Source: Novosphingobium pentaromativorans US6-1
GTDB lineage: Bacteria > Pseudomonadota > Alphaproteobacteria > Sphingomonadales > Sphingomonadaceae
Assembly: GCF_000767465.1 (NCBI RefSeq)
Contig: NZ_CP009291.1
Location: 3,452,501-3,516,500 of the forward strand
DNA length: 64,000 nucleotides
Direction: 5' to 3'
Of the stretch, positions 45,986 to 54,004 are shown in pieces. Position 1 is the stretch's first letter. Every line of letters begins with the position of its first letter. Under the pieces are notes generated by a model. The model ran no database searches. It saw only the letters and a list, made by a program, of their open reading frames with translations, and had not been told where the DNA came from. The position numbers and the translations under genes are program-made.

Positions 45986-47125
45986 TCAGCCTTCGCGTTC
46001 GATCAGCCATTCAAGCAGGGCCCCAAGGCAGTCGCGGCCCAGTTGCATCGAGCGTTCCGGGCTCCATTCCTGTTTCGGGTCGGCAGCCGGGTTGTGGTCC
46101 TTGAACGGCATTTCCAGCGTCATCGCGACGCAGCCGAAGCGTTCGGCAAGCTGGTTCGTCGACATCGCCAGATTGCCCTTGCCGGGCCGCGCGACCGGGT
46201 AACCGAGCTTGGTCTGGAAATCGGGCGTGCGCCGTTCCAGCAGGGCGGCGTAGCGGTCATACCCTTCCTTCTGCTCGGGCTTGAGCGAGGGGATGCCCTC
46301 GAACCCTGCCAGGAATACGGCGGGAATCGCTTCGTCGCCATGCACGTCCATGGCGAAGTCGACCCCGCTGGCGTCCATGGCCTTGCGGATCGCCAGCACT
46401 TCGGGCGAACGTCCGGCGCTCGGCTCGTTCCATTCGCGGTTGAGGTTCACGCCCGCGGCATTGGTGCGCAAGTGGCCGCGGCGCGAACCGTCGGGGTTGG
46501 CATTGGGCACGACATGCAGGCGGCAGCGACGGCGCAGTTCGCGGCCCACCGAACTCGCCGGGTCGGCCAGCAGGTCCAGCGAGCCTTCCATCCACCATTC
46601 GGCCATCGATTCGCCCGGGTGCTGGCGCGCATAGAGCCAGACATGCACGGGGCCTTCGCCCATCTCGAGGCAGTCGACCGGCTGACCGTCCAGGGTGGTG
46701 CCCAGGCAGCTGTAGGCGACGCCGTCCGCAGCCGCGATGCGCGCCACCAAGTCGTGGTGCCGCTCCATCGAAAAGGGCGCGAAATAGGCGAACCAGGCAA
46801 GATCGCCTGATGGGCGGTAGGTGATGGTGAGGGTGCCGCCGTCGCGGCTCTCGTCCCATTGTCCGGCGGCGCGGCCCCAGAACCGGCGATCTTCGCTGAC
46901 GGCCGCGTTGTAGCTTGCCCAGCCCATCGGATAGGCCGAGCCGTTGAGGCCGGTGATCCGCAGCGTCACTTCGCGTCCCTGCGCGCCGCTGACGCGGAAG
47001 TGGAACCACTGGTAGAAATCGGACTCGTGGTCGCGCCGGATGGCAAGGCGCGCCTCGGTACCGTCGATGGAAAGGACTTCGATGTTGCCGGAATCGAATG
47101 CGGAGGTGATCTGTATCTCTGTCAT
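45986..47125 (-). CDS. M14 cytosolic carboxypeptidase-like protein
   Basis: The 379-residue protein is a bacterial member of the M14 group related to eukaryotic cytosolic carboxypeptidases. An N-terminal beta domain (about 1-120) precedes the catalytic domain. Zinc ligands and substrate residues are in [12 protein letters not shown] (HxxE), [28 protein letters not shown], and the glutamate base in TLEMPFKDH. No signal peptide is seen. It overlaps the stop of the upstream lipoprotein gene (ATGA), a coupling that links it to envelope proteins. The substrate is unknown; removal of C-terminal acidic residues is the family theme. Confidence 0.9.
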
Positions 47126-47730
47126 TTCACGAGGATAGTTTCCCCGGACTGGCCCGGAAAGTCCTTGAACAGCGCTTCGGCCATTTTCGCGGCCCCCAGA
47201 GATGTCTGGGCGAGGGGAGACTTGCTGCTGACCGAGAACTGCGCGCGGCCTTCCCAGATGGTGCGGCCGCTTTCGCGTTCGCGGATCATTACGTGCATTT
47301 GCGTTTCCACTTGCGCAGGTGGCGGTCCGGACAGGTCGATGCCGAGACCGACGCCCAGTCCCGAGCCGTAACTGCCGGTGCTGCCGCCCACGCCGACCGA
47401 TACCGGGCTGCCGTTGCGGACCGGGGCGAGGGTGTGGCGCTCGACGGACAGCTGTGCGACCTGCTGGCTGGGGGCCGCGCCGGGCAGGGGCGCGGTGTAG
47501 CCGACGCGGGTCAGTTCGCGCAGGACGGCGCCGGAGAAGGCACCGAATTCCATCCCGGCCTCCTGGCCTTCGGACGGTTCGACCGCGATCGTGCCCCGGC
47601 CCAGCGGAATCGCGCCGGCGGCATGAAACCGGGTGACCTCGACCGGTCCGACCGGCGCGACGCAGCCGCTCAGGAACAGGCTCGTCGCCAGGACGGCAGC
47701 GCCGCCAAGGGCTTGCAGGGTATGGCGCAT
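47122..47730 (-). CDS. DUF4136-like lipoprotein
   Basis: The 202-residue protein has a lipoprotein signal ([13 protein letters not shown], lipobox LSGC), followed by a DUF4136-like fold with [12 protein letters not shown], a glycine- and serine-rich loop ([21 protein letters not shown]) and [13 protein letters not shown] near the end. It resembles the next gene on this strand (47795-48538), also in layout, and the two look like diverged tandem paralogues. The role is unknown; outer membrane location is inferred from the signal. Confidence 0.82.
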
Positions 47731-47794
47731 ATCAACCTCTCCGGTGCTCAGGCATGTGCCGGTGTGCCGCCTGCACCGGGAGGATGCAAGTCGC

Positions 47795-48538
47795 TCAGTT
47801 TTCCGGGGCGGCTACCGGGTCCGCCTTGGGGAAATTGTCGAAGAGAGCGGTGGCCAGCTTGCTGGCGATGCGGTCGTCGCTCCAGTCGTCGTCGCCTTCG
47901 CGGGTGGCGATCGTGGCATAGCCTTCCCACAGGACCTTGCCGCTGGCCTCGTCGACGATGCGCGTGTCGAGCCGGGTGGAAATCAGCGCGGCGCGCGGCT
48001 TGGTAAGGTCGATGTTGATGCCAAGGCCATAGGCCGAACCCCGATTGCTCACGCCCATGGCGGCGGTGCCGCTTACGGGACTGCGCTTTTCCTCGGCAGG
48101 GGCAAGCACTTGCCGGGTGATGCGCAGCCGGGCGACCTGCCCCGGCGTCGCGCCGGAATGGAGCGTGTCGTAGCCCGCACCGACCAGCGCGTTCTCGATT
48201 GCTGCTTCGTAAGTGGCCCGCTTGCCGGAATCGAACCAGGGGCCGTCGCCCGATTCCGATTCGACGGTGACCGGGCCGTGACCCAGGGTCGCGGCGGCAT
48301 CGCCTTGGGCCGCGAAGCGGCTGACCTCTACCCGGCCCTCGCGCGAATCGCGGGACCGCGATGCGGCGCGCGCGGAAAGGCGGTCGGGATAGCGGTCCAG
48401 CGGATCGTCCCAGGCGGATCGGCCCCAGCCGGAACCCCAGCCCAGCGGCCGGGCGAAAGCCGGGATCGGCGCGAAGGCAGGGGATAGCGCCATGGCGGCC
48501 ATGCCCGCGGCGAGAAGCGCGCGCTTGTGGTTGTGCAT
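47795..48538 (-). CDS. Secreted DUF4136-like protein
   Basis: The 247-residue protein has a cleavable signal (MHNHKRALLAAGMAAMALSP to about residue 29, ending FARP). A linker rich in R, S and D follows, then a DUF4136-like region similar to the downstream lipoprotein: VEVSRFAAQGDAAATLG, VSNRGSAYGLGINIDLTKPR and GKVLWEGYATIATREGDDDW. It lacks a lipobox cysteine. Start 48538 is the signal-peptide methionine, with AGAAG upstream. It heads the run that continues with the lipoprotein and the M14 carboxypeptidase. Confidence 0.82.
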   Translation of the reverse strand: MHNHKRALLAAGMAAMALSPAFAPIPAFARPLGWGSGWGRSAWDDPLDRYPDRLSARAASRSRDSREGRVEVSRFAAQGDAAATLGHGPVTVESESGDGPWFDSGKRATYEAAIENALVGAGYDTLHSGATPGQVARLRITRQVLAPAEEKRSPVSGTAAMGVSNRGSAYGLGINIDLTKPRAALISTRLDTRIVDEASGKVLWEGYATIATREGDDDWSDDRIASKLATALFDNFPKADPVAAPEN

Positions 48539-48752
48539 TACCGTCTTCTCTTTTTTCGAGTTCAGTGTCGTCGCGCCCGGCGATGGTATATGATGGCGTG
48601 CCATTGCCGGGCGATGAACGGAGCCTAAATCTCAGTCGGATGCCGCAGGAATTGCCCGCCGGCGCTTGACTTTGCATGCAGCGACCATTAACGGCGCGGC
48701 TTCAATTTTCCGGCGGTCGGTAACCGCCCGACACACGCAGACGAGACAAACG

Positions 48753-48979: not shown

Positions 48980-49591
48980 TTGTCCGGAACAATCGAAGCC
49001 GTCGTTTTCGACGTGGGCCGGGTGCTCGTCCAGTGGGACATGCGCCGGCTCTTTGCGCAGCTGATCGACGATGCCGATCGGCTCGACTGGTTCATGACCC
49101 ATGTCGTGACCGAGGAATGGCACTTCCTGCACGACGCCGGCCGCGACCTTGGCGAACTGGTCGCTGAGCGCAAGACGCAGTTTCCCGGCAACGATCACCT
49201 GATCGACGCTTATGCCACCCGCTTTCTCGAGACCATTCCCGGCAATGTTCCGGGCAGCCACGAGATCGTGCGCGAACTGGCCGGGCGCGATGTGCCGCTT
49301 TTTGCCATCACCAATTTCGCCAGTCCGTTCTGGCGCGAGTACCGGGAGAGCGAGCCGCTGTTCGACCTGTTCGGCGACATCGTCGTTTCGGGCGACGAGA
49401 AGATCGCCAAGCCCGATGCGCGCATCTTCGAGATCGCCTCGCGCCGTTTCGGCCATGAGCCCGGCGCGATGATCTTCATCGACGACAATGCGGCAAACAT
49501 CGAAGCTGCGGACAGGCTCGGCTGGAACGTCCATCACTTTACCGACGCGCCCCGGCTGCGCGAGGACCTGACGCGGCGCGGGCTACTCTGA
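48980..49591 (+). CDS. HAD-superfamily hydrolase (subfamily IA)
   Basis: The 203-residue protein has HAD motif I in VVFDVGRVLVQWD (Asp-x-Gly, as in the YihX-like subgroup), a helical cap, motif II in FAITNFASPFW, motif III around GDEKIAKPDARIFE and motif IV in MIFIDDNAANIEAA. It is probably a sugar phosphatase or dehalogenase-like phosphatase; the substrate is unknown. The only start that retains motif I is the TTG at 48980, seven bases after a G-run that is part of the rpmJ hairpin. Confidence 0.85.
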   Translation: MSGTIEAVVFDVGRVLVQWDMRRLFAQLIDDADRLDWFMTHVVTEEWHFLHDAGRDLGELVAERKTQFPGNDHLIDAYATRFLETIPGNVPGSHEIVRELAGRDVPLFAITNFASPFWREYRESEPLFDLFGDIVVSGDEKIAKPDARIFEIASRRFGHEPGAMIFIDDNAANIEAADRLGWNVHHFTDAPRLREDLTRRGLL

Positions 49592-49736
49592 AGGCGCCGG
49601 CTCCGGTCAGCTGACCGGGAGCGGATCGGTCCGGTTTCGGCCGCTTTCGCGTGCAGAAAATTTATTTCGCAACTGCAGCGTAAACTCTTGGCAACTCCCC
49701 ATCCATGTTGCATCACATGGACAAACGGGAGTCACA

Positions 49737-51173
49737 ATGTCGGCTGCTACTGGTATCAAGTATGACGAGATGCTCGACGAGGACGGCTCGGTCCGTCCTG
49801 CCTACGCCGAATTCAGAAACTGGTACGACTCTCAGGACAAGGCCTGGCTGAAACGCCAGGACGCCGAGGCCGAAAGATTCTTTCGCCGCATCGGAATTAC
49901 TTTCAACGTCTATGGCGACGATGCCGCCGAAGAGCGGTTGATCCCGTTCGACATGATCCCGCGGATCATCACCGCGCGCGAATGGCGCAAGCTGACGCGC
50001 GGGATCGAGCAGCGGGTGAGGGCGCTCAATGCCTTCCTGCAGGATCTCTACCACCGGCAGGAAATCATCCGATCCGGGCGCCTGCCGATCCACGCCCTGC
50101 GCAACAACGAGGCGTTCCTGACGCAGATGATCGGGTTCACGCCGCCGGGCGCGGTCTATACCCACATCGTCGGCATCGACCTCGTGCGCACCGGCCCCGA
50201 GGAATTCATGGTGCTGGAGGACAATGCCCGCACCCCGTCCGGCGTCTCGTACATGCTCGAGAACCGCGAGACGATGATGGCGATGTTCCCCGAGCTGTTC
50301 ACCAGGATCCCGGTGCGGCCGGTCTCGGACTATCCGCGCCGCCTTGCGCGCTCGCTGCGTGCCTGTGCGCCGCCGGCCTTCAAGGGCAGCAAGCGGCCGG
50401 TGGTCGCGGTGCTGACTCCGGGCATCTACAATTCGGCCTATTTCGAGCACGCCTTTCTGGCCGACCAGATGGGCGCGGAACTGGTGGAGGGCAGCGACCT
50501 TCGCGTCGTCGACGGCCGCGTCGCGATGCGCACTACCTGCGGCTACAAGGCGGTGGACGTGATCTACCGCCGTGTCGACGACGACTTCCTCGATCCGCTC
50601 AGCTTCAACAAGAACTCGGTTCTCGGCGTTGCCGGGATCATGGACGTCTATCGCGCCGGTGGCATCACGATCGCCAATGCGCCGGGCACGGGCATCGCCG
50701 ACGACAAGGCGATCTACAGCTACATGCCCGAAATCGTCGAGTTCTACACGGGCGAGAAGCCGATCCTGGACAATGTGCCGACGTGGCGTTGCAGCGAGCC
50801 GGACTCGCTCGCCTACGTGCTCGACAACCTGAAGGACCTCGTCGTCAAGGAAGTCCATGGCTCGGGCGGCTACGGCATGCTCATCGGCCCGACGTCCTCG
50901 AAGAAGGAACTGGCGGCCTTCGAGGAGAAGCTGCGCGCCCGGCCGGAAAACTACATCGCCCAGCCGACGCTCTCGCTCTCGACGGTGCCGATCTTCACGA
51001 AGGAAGGGCTCGCCCCGCGCCACGTCGACTTGCGGCCCTTCGTACTGGTGTCGCCCGACGGCATCGACATCACGCCGGGCGGCCTGACCCGCGTGGCGCT
51101 CAAGAAAGGTTCCCTGGTAGTCAACTCGTCGCAGGGCGGGGGCACCAAGGACAGCTGGGTTCTGGACGAATAA
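49737..51173 (+). CDS. Circularly permuted ATP-grasp protein (DUF404/DUF407 type)
   Basis: The 478-residue protein is the circularly permuted ATP-grasp member of the conserved Anbu neighbourhood. Features are FNVYGDDAAEERLIPFDMIPR (quoted in part), EEFMVLEDNARTPSGVSYMLEN, VYRRVDDDFLDPLSF-like catalytic region, DKAIYSYMPEIVEFY and DLVVKEVHGSGGYGMLIG. ATP-grasp enzymes of this group form amide bonds, so a role as a peptide or amino acid ligase is inferred. ATG 49737 has GGGAG upstream. It is the first of four genes; its stop and the next ATG overlap (TAATG). Confidence 0.9.
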   Translation: MSAATGIKYDEMLDEDGSVRPAYAEFRNWYDSQDKAWLKRQDAEAERFFRRIGITFNVYGDDAAEERLIPFDMIPRIITAREWRKLTRGIEQRVRALNAFLQDLYHRQEIIRSGRLPIHALRNNEAFLTQMIGFTPPGAVYTHIVGIDLVRTGPEEFMVLEDNARTPSGVSYMLENRETMMAMFPELFTRIPVRPVSDYPRRLARSLRACAPPAFKGSKRPVVAVLTPGIYNSAYFEHAFLADQMGAELVEGSDLRVVDGRVAMRTTCGYKAVDVIYRRVDDDFLDPLSFNKNSVLGVAGIMDVYRAGGITIANAPGTGIADDKAIYSYMPEIVEFYTGEKPILDNVPTWRCSEPDSLAYVLDNLKDLVVKEVHGSGGYGMLIGPTSSKKELAAFEEKLRARPENYIAQPTLSLSTVPIFTKEGLAPRHVDLRPFVLVSPDGIDITPGGLTRVALKKGSLVVNSSQGGGTKDSWVLDE

Positions 51174-52120
51174 TGCTCGGTCGTGCTGCCTATGGCGTCT
51201 TCTGGATGGCCCGCTACCTTGAACGGGCGGAGAACACCGCGCGCCTGATCGACGTCGGTTTCCACCTTGCGCTGACCCGCGGGGACAAGGCCTCGCAGGA
51301 CGAGGAGTGGAAATCGGTCCTCACCACCACCGGCCAGCTCGAAGCCTACAAGGCGGCGCACAAGGACATGACCGGACCGCAGGTGTTCAACTACCTGCTG
51401 CGCGACAGGGAGAACCCCGCCAGCGTCCTCAGGATGGTCGAAGCCGCCCGCACCAATGCGCGCGTCGTGCGCACAAGCATCACCAACGAGGTCTGGGAAG
51501 CCACCAACGACGGCTGGATGACCTTGAGCGAGATCCTCTCGCGCCCGGTTCGCGAGAGCAACCTGGGCGAAGTGCTCACCGCCGTTCGCGGTCAGGCGAC
51601 CCTGGTGCGCGGCGCCATGGGCGGCTCGATGCTGCGCAACGACGTGTTCAACTTCGCGCGCATCGGCACTTTCATCGAGCGCGCGGACAACACTGCCCGC
51701 ATTCTCGACGTGAAGTACTACGTCCTGCTGCCGTCCGTCGCCTGGGTCGGCTCCAGCCTCGACAATGCCCAGTGGGATACGCTGCTGCGCTCGGTTGCGG
51801 GCAGCCGCGCCTATTCCTGGCTCAACGCCGGTTCGATGGACCCGCGCGACATCGCCCGCTTCATGATCCTCGACGGGCAGTTCCCGCGCAGCCTGGTGTT
51901 CTGCTTCGAGAAGATCCGCAGCAACATGGCCGGGCTGGCCAAGCAGTACGGGCATGAGACCGGCGCTCACGAACTGCTGCGCAACGTCGGCGCGCGACTG
52001 CACCAGACGACGATCGAGGAGATCTTCGACATGGGTCTGCATGAGTTCCTTCAGGACTTCATCGGCAAGACCAACCTGATCGGCGACGCCATTGCCGCCG
52101 ACTACCGCTTTATTGAATGA
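51173..52120 (+). CDS. Alpha-E domain protein (DUF403)
   Basis: The 315-residue helical protein begins MLGRAAYGVFWMARYLERAENTARLIDVG (quoted in part), the hallmark of the alpha-E superfamily. It also has FNFARIGTFIERADNTARI, a repeat of the same helical motif, and ILDGQFPRSLVFC. The family is almost always encoded next to the circularly permuted ATP-grasp gene and a transglutaminase-like gene; biochemical role unknown. It starts within the TAATG overlap with the preceding gene, so expression is coupled. Confidence 0.9.
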   Translation: MLGRAAYGVFWMARYLERAENTARLIDVGFHLALTRGDKASQDEEWKSVLTTTGQLEAYKAAHKDMTGPQVFNYLLRDRENPASVLRMVEAARTNARVVRTSITNEVWEATNDGWMTLSEILSRPVRESNLGEVLTAVRGQATLVRGAMGGSMLRNDVFNFARIGTFIERADNTARILDVKYYVLLPSVAWVGSSLDNAQWDTLLRSVAGSRAYSWLNAGSMDPRDIARFMILDGQFPRSLVFCFEKIRSNMAGLAKQYGHETGAHELLRNVGARLHQTTIEEIFDMGLHEFLQDFIGKTNLIGDAIAADYRFIE

Positions 52121-52130
52121 GGCTCGCCTA

Positions 52131-52994
52131 GTGCTCCTGACCGTAACGCACACGACCCGTTATGCATTCGCCGACAGTGTCACGCACGGTTTGCAGCGCC
52201 TGAGATTGAAACCCAAGTCCACCCACGGCCAGGAAGTGATCGAGTGGGACATGGACCTTTCCGGCGCAAAGCGCGAAGCCGAGTATGACGACCAGCACCA
52301 CAATCATACCGAACTGGTCTCGATAGAACCGGGGGTGCCGGAAGTCGTCGTGACCTGCCGCGGGACGGTGCGCACGATGGACAACAACGGCGTCACCGGA
52401 CAGCACACCGGGCACATGCCGCTCTGGTGCTTCCTGCGCCCGACGCCCCTGACGCGCGCAGGCAACAGGGTTCGCTCGCTGGTCGCCTCGATCGGGGTCG
52501 ACCGTCACGATACGCTCAACTACCTTCATGCCCTGTCTCACGCCATCGCAGAGCAGGTCGAGTACCTTCCGGGCACGACCGACGTCACCACCACCGCGGA
52601 ACAGTCGCTGACCGCGGGGCAGGGCGTGTGCCAGGACCACGCCCACATCTTCATCAGCGCCGGACGGCTCCTCGACATCCCGATGCGCTACGTCGGCGGT
52701 TACCTGTTGATGGACGAGAAAGTGGAGCAGGAGGCCGGCCACGGCTGGGCCGAAGCCTACGTGCAGGGGCTGGGCTGGGTCGGCTTCGACATCTCCAACG
52801 CGATCTGTCCCGATGAACGCTATATCCGGGTCGCTACCGGCTGCGACTACAGCGAGGCCGCCCCGGTCACCGGAATCGCCATCGGTGCTGGGGAAACGCA
52901 GCTCGATGTGCATTTGTCGGTCGGCCAGAAGATGCTAGGGGGACAGCAGCAGTCCTCGCCAGGCGGGCAGCAGCAGCAAATGCAGGGTCGCTGA
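52131..52994 (+). CDS. Transglutaminase-like cysteine peptidase
   Basis: The 287-residue protein has an N-terminal bacterial transglutaminase-like domain (THTTRYAFADSVTHGLQRLRLKP) and the core triad C167 (GQGVCQDHAHIF), H204 (GHGWAEAYV) and D220 (WVGFDISN). After the core it has an unusual glutamine-rich tail (GGQQQSSPGGQQQQMQ, residues about 268-287). Such proteins act as peptidases or amidases or transfer acyl groups. GTG 52131 is chosen as the only good start near the DUF403 stop, 10 bp before. It is third in the Anbu cluster. Confidence 0.88.
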   Translation: MLLTVTHTTRYAFADSVTHGLQRLRLKPKSTHGQEVIEWDMDLSGAKREAEYDDQHHNHTELVSIEPGVPEVVVTCRGTVRTMDNNGVTGQHTGHMPLWCFLRPTPLTRAGNRVRSLVASIGVDRHDTLNYLHALSHAIAEQVEYLPGTTDVTTTAEQSLTAGQGVCQDHAHIFISAGRLLDIPMRYVGGYLLMDEKVEQEAGHGWAEAYVQGLGWVGFDISNAICPDERYIRVATGCDYSEAAPVTGIAIGAGETQLDVHLSVGQKMLGGQQQSSPGGQQQQMQGR

Positions 52995-53058
52995 GCGGCC
53001 GCTCAGGGCGCTGTGCCGGGCGGGGTTCGCTGAAGCGGTTGCAGGGGCTTAGAATTCC

Positions 53059-53820
53059 ATGACCTATTGCGTGGGCATGATGTTGGAACGTGGCCTCGTG
53101 CTCATGAGCGACACGCGGACCAATTCAGGCGTCGACAATATCTCCACCTTCCGCAAGATGTTCCACTGGGAAGTGCCCGGGGAGCGCATCATCGCGGTGA
53201 TGTCGGCGGGCAATCTGGCAACCACGCAAGCCGTCGTCAGCCAGCTTGAAGAGCGTAACAAGGCGCCTTCCGATCGTCACAACTCGCTGCTCGATGCCGA
53301 ATCGATGTTCCAGGTGGCGACCATTGTGGGCAATCTCCTGCAGGACACCATCGCCGTGCGCGCCGCCGACAACGGGCAGAGCGCGGCGGGAACCTTCAGC
53401 GCCTCGCTGATCGTCGCAGGGCAGATCAAGGGCATGGAGCCGCGTCTCTTCCTGATCTACCCGGAAGGCAATTTCATCGAGGCTAGCTTCGACACGCCTT
53501 TCTTCCAGATCGGCGAAACCAAGTACGGGCGCCCGATCCTCATTCGCGGCTACGAGCCCAAGATGAGCTTCGAGAATGCAGTCAAGCTGATGACCGTATC
53601 CTTCGATTCGACGCTCAAGGCGAACCTGTCGGTCGGCATGCCGCTCGACCTGCTGGTGATCGAACGAGACACTTTCACGCCGCTGCACGAACGCCGCATC
53701 GAATGGGACGATCCCTATTTCCAGGCGGTCTCTACCGGCTGGGGCGAAGCCTTGCGCCAGGCGCTGGACGCCTTGCCGGACTATCACATGGATACTGCCC
53801 TGCAGACGGCGGCGGAGTGA
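53059..53820 (+). CDS. Anbu, proteasome-beta-like peptidase
   Basis: The 253-residue protein is Anbu (ancestral beta subunit, bacterial proteasome homologue), an Ntn hydrolase. After removal of Met1 the mature N-terminus is TYCVGMMLERGLVLMSDTRT, which offers Thr1 and Asp17; Lys32 in TFRKMF stands where the catalytic lysine is expected. Later strands such as TFSASLIVAGQIKG and the GYEPKMSF region match the family. No prodomain is present, as is usual for Anbu. The gene lies 64 bp after the transglutaminase gene, completing the four-gene cluster. Its peptide substrate is unknown. The ATG at 53059 is the only start giving Thr at position 2. Confidence 0.92.
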   Translation: MTYCVGMMLERGLVLMSDTRTNSGVDNISTFRKMFHWEVPGERIIAVMSAGNLATTQAVVSQLEERNKAPSDRHNSLLDAESMFQVATIVGNLLQDTIAVRAADNGQSAAGTFSASLIVAGQIKGMEPRLFLIYPEGNFIEASFDTPFFQIGETKYGRPILIRGYEPKMSFENAVKLMTVSFDSTLKANLSVGMPLDLLVIERDTFTPLHERRIEWDDPYFQAVSTGWGEALRQALDALPDYHMDTALQTAAE

Positions 53821-53855
53821 GCCTGCTGCTTGGCCGGGGTTTCACTGGGCCTCGG

Positions 53856-53946
53856 CGTCATCCTGAACCCGTTGCAGGATTCATGTCTGCGGATCGGACG
53901 GCAGTGCCCAAGACACGATAGATCCTGCAACAGGTTCAGGATGACG
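53856..53946. repeat. Long interrupted inverted repeat after anbu
   Basis: A 25-bp left arm (53856-53880, CGTCATCCTGAACCCGTTGC...) and a 25-bp right arm (53922-53946, ...GGTTCAGGATGACG) match except for one base and enclose 41 bp. It lies between convergent genes and resembles the dispersed intergenic repeats of sphingomonads. Confidence 0.6.
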
Positions 53947-53984
53947 CGTGAGGGCGGGGGTGATCCTGTCCATTTAACCATGCG

Positions 53985-54004
53985 TCCTGGCCTGCAGGCC
54001 AGGA
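53985..54004. repeat. 20-bp perfect palindrome
   Basis: TCCTGGCCTGCAGGCCAGGA reads the same on both strands, in the same convergent gap as the previous repeat. It may form a hairpin or be a fragment of a dispersed element. Confidence 0.55.

Follow-up and report, generated by a model that had tools for sequence, protein, structure and literature searches.

The four-gene Anbu operon of Novosphingobium pentaromativorans US6-1 occupies positions 49737 to 53820 of a 64,000-nucleotide stretch (hereafter the window, C1:3452501-3516500) of its 5.46-Mb genome, and encodes a circularly permuted ATP-grasp protein, an Alpha-E protein, a transglutaminase-like cysteine hydrolase (TGase) and the proteasome-fold protein Anbu. 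The function of this operon has been open since 2008-09. The reading that we put first, at somewhat under an even chance, is that ATP-grasp and Alpha-E form a small peptide-amide synthetase coupled to two amidases. In this scheme Alpha-E is an indispensable partner subunit of the ATP-grasp enzyme, which would convert the carboxylate group of its peptide or amino acid substrate into an acyl phosphate and couple it to a small amine, either an amino acid or a polyamine; TGase and the threonine enzyme Anbu, acting as hydrolases or transpeptidases, would then cut or process the ligase product. We infer all of this chemistry, including the action of both hydrolases on one product, and its overall logic would be that of glutathionylspermidine synthetase/amidase distributed over separate proteins, perhaps acting under nitrogen limitation. 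An original prediction made from the sequence alone had likewise proposed that the ligase makes a peptide tag or product which the peptidases process or remove. A shared product agrees with the operon's anatomy and with its phyletic profile, though the idea was already published, the operon association and the peptide-synthesis and tagging proposals being credited to Valas & Bourne 2008 and Iyer et al. 2009 (PMC5666114, PMC6376114; all papers are cited here from excerpts).

All four genes lie on the forward strand in the order typical of Anbu operons. CP_ATPgrasp_2 (circularly permuted ATP-grasp type 2), a predicted amide ligase of 478 aa, is encoded at 49737-51173 with an ATG start and a TAA stop, and Alpha-E (315 aa, 51173-52120) overlaps it by one base in a TAATG junction. 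After a 10-bp gap comes TGase (287 aa, 52131-52994, GTG start, TGA stop) and after a further 64 bp an Anbu of the Anbu-1 type (253 aa, 53059-53820, ATG start). Every one of these coordinates, as well as the packing, is exactly as originally predicted, and each of the four families proposed there was recovered by a Pfam match, for Anbu also by PDB sequences. A longer TGase open reading frame (ORF) from TTG 52092 would overlap Alpha-E, and the Pfam N-domain match already begins at residue 3 when translation is started at GTG 52131, so we take this GTG as the start. No terminator-like site was detected in 49550-54000, a region for which shuffled sequence averages 2.4. Judged by gene content and order, the locus is an intact, ordinary member of a four-gene operon family described since 2008-09. 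It shares families, order and Anbu catalytic residues with the operon of Yersinia bercovieri and Pseudomonas aeruginosa (PMC6376114, PMC5666114), and differs from it in a genus-specific upstream element and in a second, fused ATP-grasp/Alpha-E locus.

The ATP-grasp protein covers the entire PF14403 profile (E 3.3e-164, profile positions 1-374 of 374). Its residues D148, E161, N163, K324 and K371 are invariant in a 53-row alignment and presumably correspond to the metal and ATP ligands of glutathionylspermidine synthetase. The sole sequence relative of known structure is PDB 3n6x (E 7.3e-188). Fold neighbours of its AlphaFold2 model (predicted local distance difference test, pLDDT, 82.5) are glutathione synthetases, YgiC/YjfC and glutathionylspermidine synthetase/amidase, with RimK-type ligases far away. 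A Pfam scan at E 0.001 returned two CP_ATPgrasp families and nothing else, hence no GSP_synth; we therefore liken the modelled protein to glutathionylspermidine synthetase in its probable working and do not place it in that family. Identity to E. coli YgiC/YjfC is 11%; these proteins are reportedly peptide-spermidine ligases and, to our knowledge, have no Alpha-E, TGase or Anbu partner. Compared with glutathionylspermidine synthetase/amidase and trypanothione synthetase-amidase, the present system has separate genes, TGase-like and Thr-type hydrolases and Alpha-E as an extra component, and the fused CHAP amidase of the former is not found here.

Alpha-E matches PF04168 over profile positions 1-293 of 294 (E 7.4e-91), and its AlphaFold2 model is all helical (pLDDT 90.3). 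When residues 1-153 are compared with residues 154-315 by hhalign, the two halves align over 152 columns at E 6e-21 with 29 diverse sequences and at E 1.8e-14 with an 89-sequence set, and each half carries one ERAxNxAR motif, with ER pairs at E17-R18 and E169-R170. By this comparison Alpha-E is a tandem duplication with homologous halves. Because eleven arginines (R14, R18, R24, R93, R97, R100, R155, R170, R176, R206 and R239) and both ER-motif glutamates are invariant in the 89 sequences, we suggest that Alpha-E may hold a pocket for something acidic. The same arginines could be taken to hold tRNA, with ligase and Alpha-E using aminoacyl-tRNA as the amine donor in the manner of PEARLs, which are proposed to derive from ATP-grasp enzymes and resemble glutathionylspermidine/glutathione synthetase (PMC11117183). 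We give this very little weight, since no LanB/PEARL entry is among the matches listed for the ATP-grasp or the Alpha-E model (up to 50 each), and phosphate release by the operon's ATP-grasp is reported in assays that, in the excerpted text, name no tRNA (PMC6376114). Alpha-E itself has no sequence relative in PDB, searched with the single sequence at E up to 1 or with the 29-sequence profile at E up to 10, and in a structure search with its model no PDB relative was clearly above noise.

Both hydrolases have intact active sites. TGase matches PF08379 (Bact_transglu_N, E 3.2e-18), PF01841 (Transglut_core, E 9.9e-21) and, as its one sequence relative of known structure, PDB 3isr (E 2.3e-14). 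The Cys-His-Asp peptidase that had been predicted is found in its triad Cys167-His204-Asp220, which is conserved among 112 rows in 107 (Cys), 111 (His) and 111 (Asp); the rows of this alignment and of that for Anbu come mostly from Alphaproteobacteria. Anbu matches PF00227 (E 1.2e-11) and five distinct PDB Anbu sequences (5loy 7.6e-86, 5nyj 1.1e-74, 5nyf 4.1e-74, 5nyw 3.9e-66 and 5lox 2e-62). Its Thr1 directly follows Met1, so no cleaved pro-peptide is expected as in the 20S proteasome or HslV, and Asp17 and Lys32 are present as predicted, in Thr1 numbering. Across 111 Anbu rows D17 and K32 occur in all and T1 in 110, and both hydrolases look constrained to remain active. That said, the earlier description of Anbu as catalytically intact holds for the active-site residues, whereas published assays, so far as excerpted, detected no peptidase activity on standard substrates (PMC5666114, PMC6376114). 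The S1 pocket of Anbu-1 is T20-F30-T48-L52-S55 (PMC5666114); here it reads T20, F30, S48, L52 and T55, two conservative exchanges that leave the protein in the Anbu-1 subtype. No AAA+ family was found among the four operon proteins and the three flanking proteins scanned, which sets the system apart from the 20S proteasome and HslV.

Several variants of the hydrolases are of note in their own right (G-numbers denote genomes and L-numbers fetched loci). In L053 (5860-6576, from G062) Ser replaces the Thr nucleophile, the remaining row of the Anbu alignment, in an otherwise complete four-gene operon. The Anbu of L067 (5215-5934, from G056) is solitary, divergent and Anbu-2-like, and its S1 pocket is altered by I20 and by Arg at both 52 and 55; its tree branch is very long and its placement unsure, and the same-class genome G056 has ATP-grasp and Alpha-E elsewhere. 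The TGase gene is gone from L030 (from G010), where some 320 bp rich in inverted repeats by eye, with no detectable remnant, lie between Alpha-E and Anbu; ATP-grasp, Alpha-E and Anbu are retained, and G010 has a further Alpha-E within an 842-aa frame. Short ORFs with weak TGase similarity lie directly 5′ of ATP-grasp in L096 (9556-9924), L110 (9561-9866) and L049 (8212-8682).

The phyletic profile is strict for the two predicted synthetase components. We surveyed 120 Pseudomonadota genomes, which are not phylogenetically independent, and found Alpha-E in 69, CP_ATPgrasp_2 in 70 (G061 below the family cut-off), Bact_transglu_N in 67 and Anbu in 43. The 69 Alpha-E genomes are the same 69 that have an above-cut-off ATP-grasp, and this pair, hereafter the core, is accordingly widespread. 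TGase occurs anywhere in the genome in 66/69 core genomes and in 1/51 others, and Anbu in 42/69 and 1/51 (Fisher P ~1e-12, not a true probability as the genomes are related). None of the 69 core genomes lacks both hydrolases, each keeping at least one. A further proposal, which we consider doubtful, is that Anbu, put forward as an ancestor-like proteasome, degrades no proteins but acts as an amidase on metabolites, and that it and TGase are alternative hydrolases serving an obligate, glutathionylspermidine-type ATP-grasp/Alpha-E synthetase, one Anbu lineage having exchanged its partner for a DUF2126 putative amidoligase fused to a TGase of its own.

Linkage of the genes is close in most genomes. 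Anbu is present in 23 of 24 other genomes of the genus, G019 lacking it, and in 1/16 genomes of the order outside the genus. Among 19 of these 23 genus loci that were fetched (G009, G012, G018 and G020 left out), 16 keep the four genes in the same order, which argues that the arrangement is not due to chance; L036 and L038 end at a contig edge and L030 lacks TGase. A scan of named genomes with the ATP-grasp alignment, skewed to close Alphaproteobacteria, gave 589 confirmed relatives, and in the best 80 of these ATP-grasp is followed by Alpha-E in every case, TGase comes next in 78 (the other two lie at contig ends) and Anbu is present in 59; of the 21 without Anbu, L093, L149 and L154 end at a contig edge. 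Across 93 four-gene one-strand loci, genus near-copies included, median gaps are 5, 13 and 49 nt, measured from the stop codon to the point at which the next homologous stretch begins and not up to a mapped start, and the few outliers are split or double matches.

Such linkage of ligase and hydrolase genes, together with the nature of Anbu as a proteasome-fold Thr hydrolase, would also suit a protein-tagging cycle, for which proposals are already published (PMC5666114, PMC6376114). In this cycle ATP-grasp with Alpha-E would tag proteins with a peptide or amino acid, and TGase and Anbu would detach the tag or degrade the tagged proteins. We regard it as rather unlikely, and with it the peptide-tag half of the original prediction, as the folds closest to the ligase model belong to small peptide-amine ligases and not to RimK-like protein taggers. 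Around the operon, no extra family exceeds 20 of 102 loci (ORFs of at least 50 aa, families in at least six loci, families not identified; L045, without ATP-grasp, was dropped from 103), the commonest, in 20/102, is scattered on both strands, and no dedicated substrate or tag gene was seen in this set. Pup/PafA/Dop-proteasome and ubiquitin-like tagging have in common with the Anbu locus a ligase adjoining a proteasome-fold hydrolase, but no tag gene or AAA+ gene was seen beside the present one, and those systems use a different class of ligase. The same count bears on whether the operon is a conserved secondary-metabolite pathway, whose ligase product would be exported or serve as a signal and be matured once by the hydrolases without turnover. 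This seems improbable to us, given that these families show no regular transporter or tailoring partner and that the breadth of 69/120 genomes is atypical of such a pathway.

The ATP-grasp/Alpha-E pair is also found fused. About 0.52 Mb away in the same genome, a second locus (L003) encodes a TGase-DUF2126 protein, an ATP-grasp/Alpha-E fusion and another TGase, and has no Anbu, the copy in the window being the only Anbu match of the genome. Frames of at least 800 aa holding both ATP-grasp and Alpha-E occur in 36/69 core genomes including this one, counted by hand from the survey tables, and all 36 also carry a standalone Alpha-E. Such a natural fusion is good evidence that ATP-grasp and Alpha-E work together, and the presence of both the four-gene operon and a fused paralogue in Novosphingobium permits single and double deletions.

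DUF2126, described by Pfam as a 'putative amidoligase', is also a neighbour of Anbu. In five fetched loci (L078-L082, L078 being from G104) Anbu adjoins a TGase-DUF2126 gene, and the Anbu tree groups these five with those of L060, L064 and L065 and the solitary Anbu of L066 in a nine-member clade (support 100/99). The loci without operon-type TGase in the Anbu tree are L030, L060, L064 and L065, and L064 has a TGase of another type beside Anbu. Since L078-L082 share a clade with Anbu from loci of another kind, Anbu has switched partners, with a predicted amide ligase adjoining it in either setting. Iyer et al. are said to have covered the DUF2126 family in 2009; literature searches on DUF2126 and on Rv2409c-Rv2411c yielded no paper, though the link of DUF2126 to Anbu may already be published. 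As far as our literature searches go, which were not specific to these points, the strictness of the profile, the duplication within Alpha-E, the fold placement of the ligase, the change of partner and the upstream element may be new, and some of them may already be contained in Iyer et al. 2009.

Several observations weigh against the synthetase/amidase couple. The operon's ATP-grasp liberates phosphate in published assays, but without stimulation by Glu or Gln, and in the excerpted text no specific interaction or stable complex of the operon proteins was detected (PMC6376114); a common fold, moreover, reveals no substrate. A test of the alternative-hydrolase idea, which we retain as a hypothesis only, was not significant (P 0.22), although all three TGase-less core genomes (G071, G122 and G142) have Anbu. 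Anbu is missing from 27/69 core genomes, and G134 has Anbu without the core; as the G134 Anbu (L066) is the tree sister of that from core-bearing G071, the core was likely lost recently from G134. In 43 genomes the distance from Anbu to Alpha-E is at most 3 kb in 35 and 6.6 kb in one, and the original expectation of linked genes holds for most; in 6/42 core genomes (G056, G059, G072, G104, G122 and G135), however, Anbu is unlinked, that is, more than 200 kb from any Alpha-E or on another contig. It is also unlinked in G134, and except in G104 the unlinked Anbu genes are solitary within the stretches fetched.

This unlinking and change of neighbours would be expected if Anbu were an ATP-independent protease of general function and its three operon companions did something else. 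In PMC5666114, whose authors favour a degradation role, Anbu is reported to bind proteasome inhibitors and to assemble into an open ring; epoxomicin is bound by its Thr1 (PMC5666114, PMC6376114). We nevertheless find this distinctly unlikely. Anbu is accompanied by the core, whether linked to it or not, in 42/43 genomes, which speaks against a free-standing protease that needs no core, and it was inactive on a panel including BODIPY-casein and standard peptides (PMC5666114, as excerpted). No function of Anbu is known according to the excerpts of PMC8665760, and the original statement that substrate and product are unknown agrees with the published accounts. If the core does encode a small-molecule synthetase/amidase couple, assays should turn to peptide-amine metabolites in place of protein substrates, which would also cast the origin of the proteasome fold in a different light.

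Upstream of the operon lies the conserved element TTTCGCANNTGCAGC, with an exact copy at 49665-49679 (+) followed by a CTTGGC -35-like hexamer. With up to two mismatches it occurs in 16/18 Novosphingobium upstream regions including that of the window, always on the same strand and 72-97 nt ahead of ATP-grasp, L029 and L030 being the two that fail; CTTGGC or CTTGAC follows it in most upstream regions inspected. It is also found in Novosphingobium loci L086, L087 and L090, in Sphingobium L103 and in L088 and L093 from metagenome-assembled genomes, and in none of six other sphingomonad loci tested (L089, L091, L092, L094, L095 and L101). One of 68 further loci has an exact copy and the rest differ by at least three mismatches. 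Genome-wide there are five exact sites, and 21 sites with up to one mismatch against nine for a backwards-read control, so that many one-mismatch sites may be chance occurrences. The other four exact sites lie near a TorF-like porin/SulP pair, a major facilitator superfamily transporter, cinA and on a 188-kb contig, beside genes that, named by eye, look unrelated. The element is a probable regulator site by its conservation, and a PhaR site was considered as a candidate. No sigma-54 or NtrC-like site was seen 5′ of ATP-grasp by eye, no scan having been run.

Just 3′ of Anbu, an inverted pair at 53859-53880 (+) and 53922-53943 (-) matches CATCCTGAACNYGTTGCAGGAT exactly; the window has two such matches, where 0.00 would be expected. 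The pair resembles a repetitive extragenic palindrome and possibly marks the operon end. On the other side, 2.6 kb upstream of the operon, a gene at 45986-47125 (-) encodes an M14 cytosolic-carboxypeptidase-like protein (PF18027 and PF00246), which is found near the operon in 7/19 genus loci, some of the fetched stretches ending early. Eukaryotic members of the cytosolic-carboxypeptidase family trim polyglutamate. Two adjoining DUF4136-like proteins are encoded at 47122-48604 (-), with Pfam matches below the cut-off, and in several loci of the genus their relatives separate the M14 gene from the operon.

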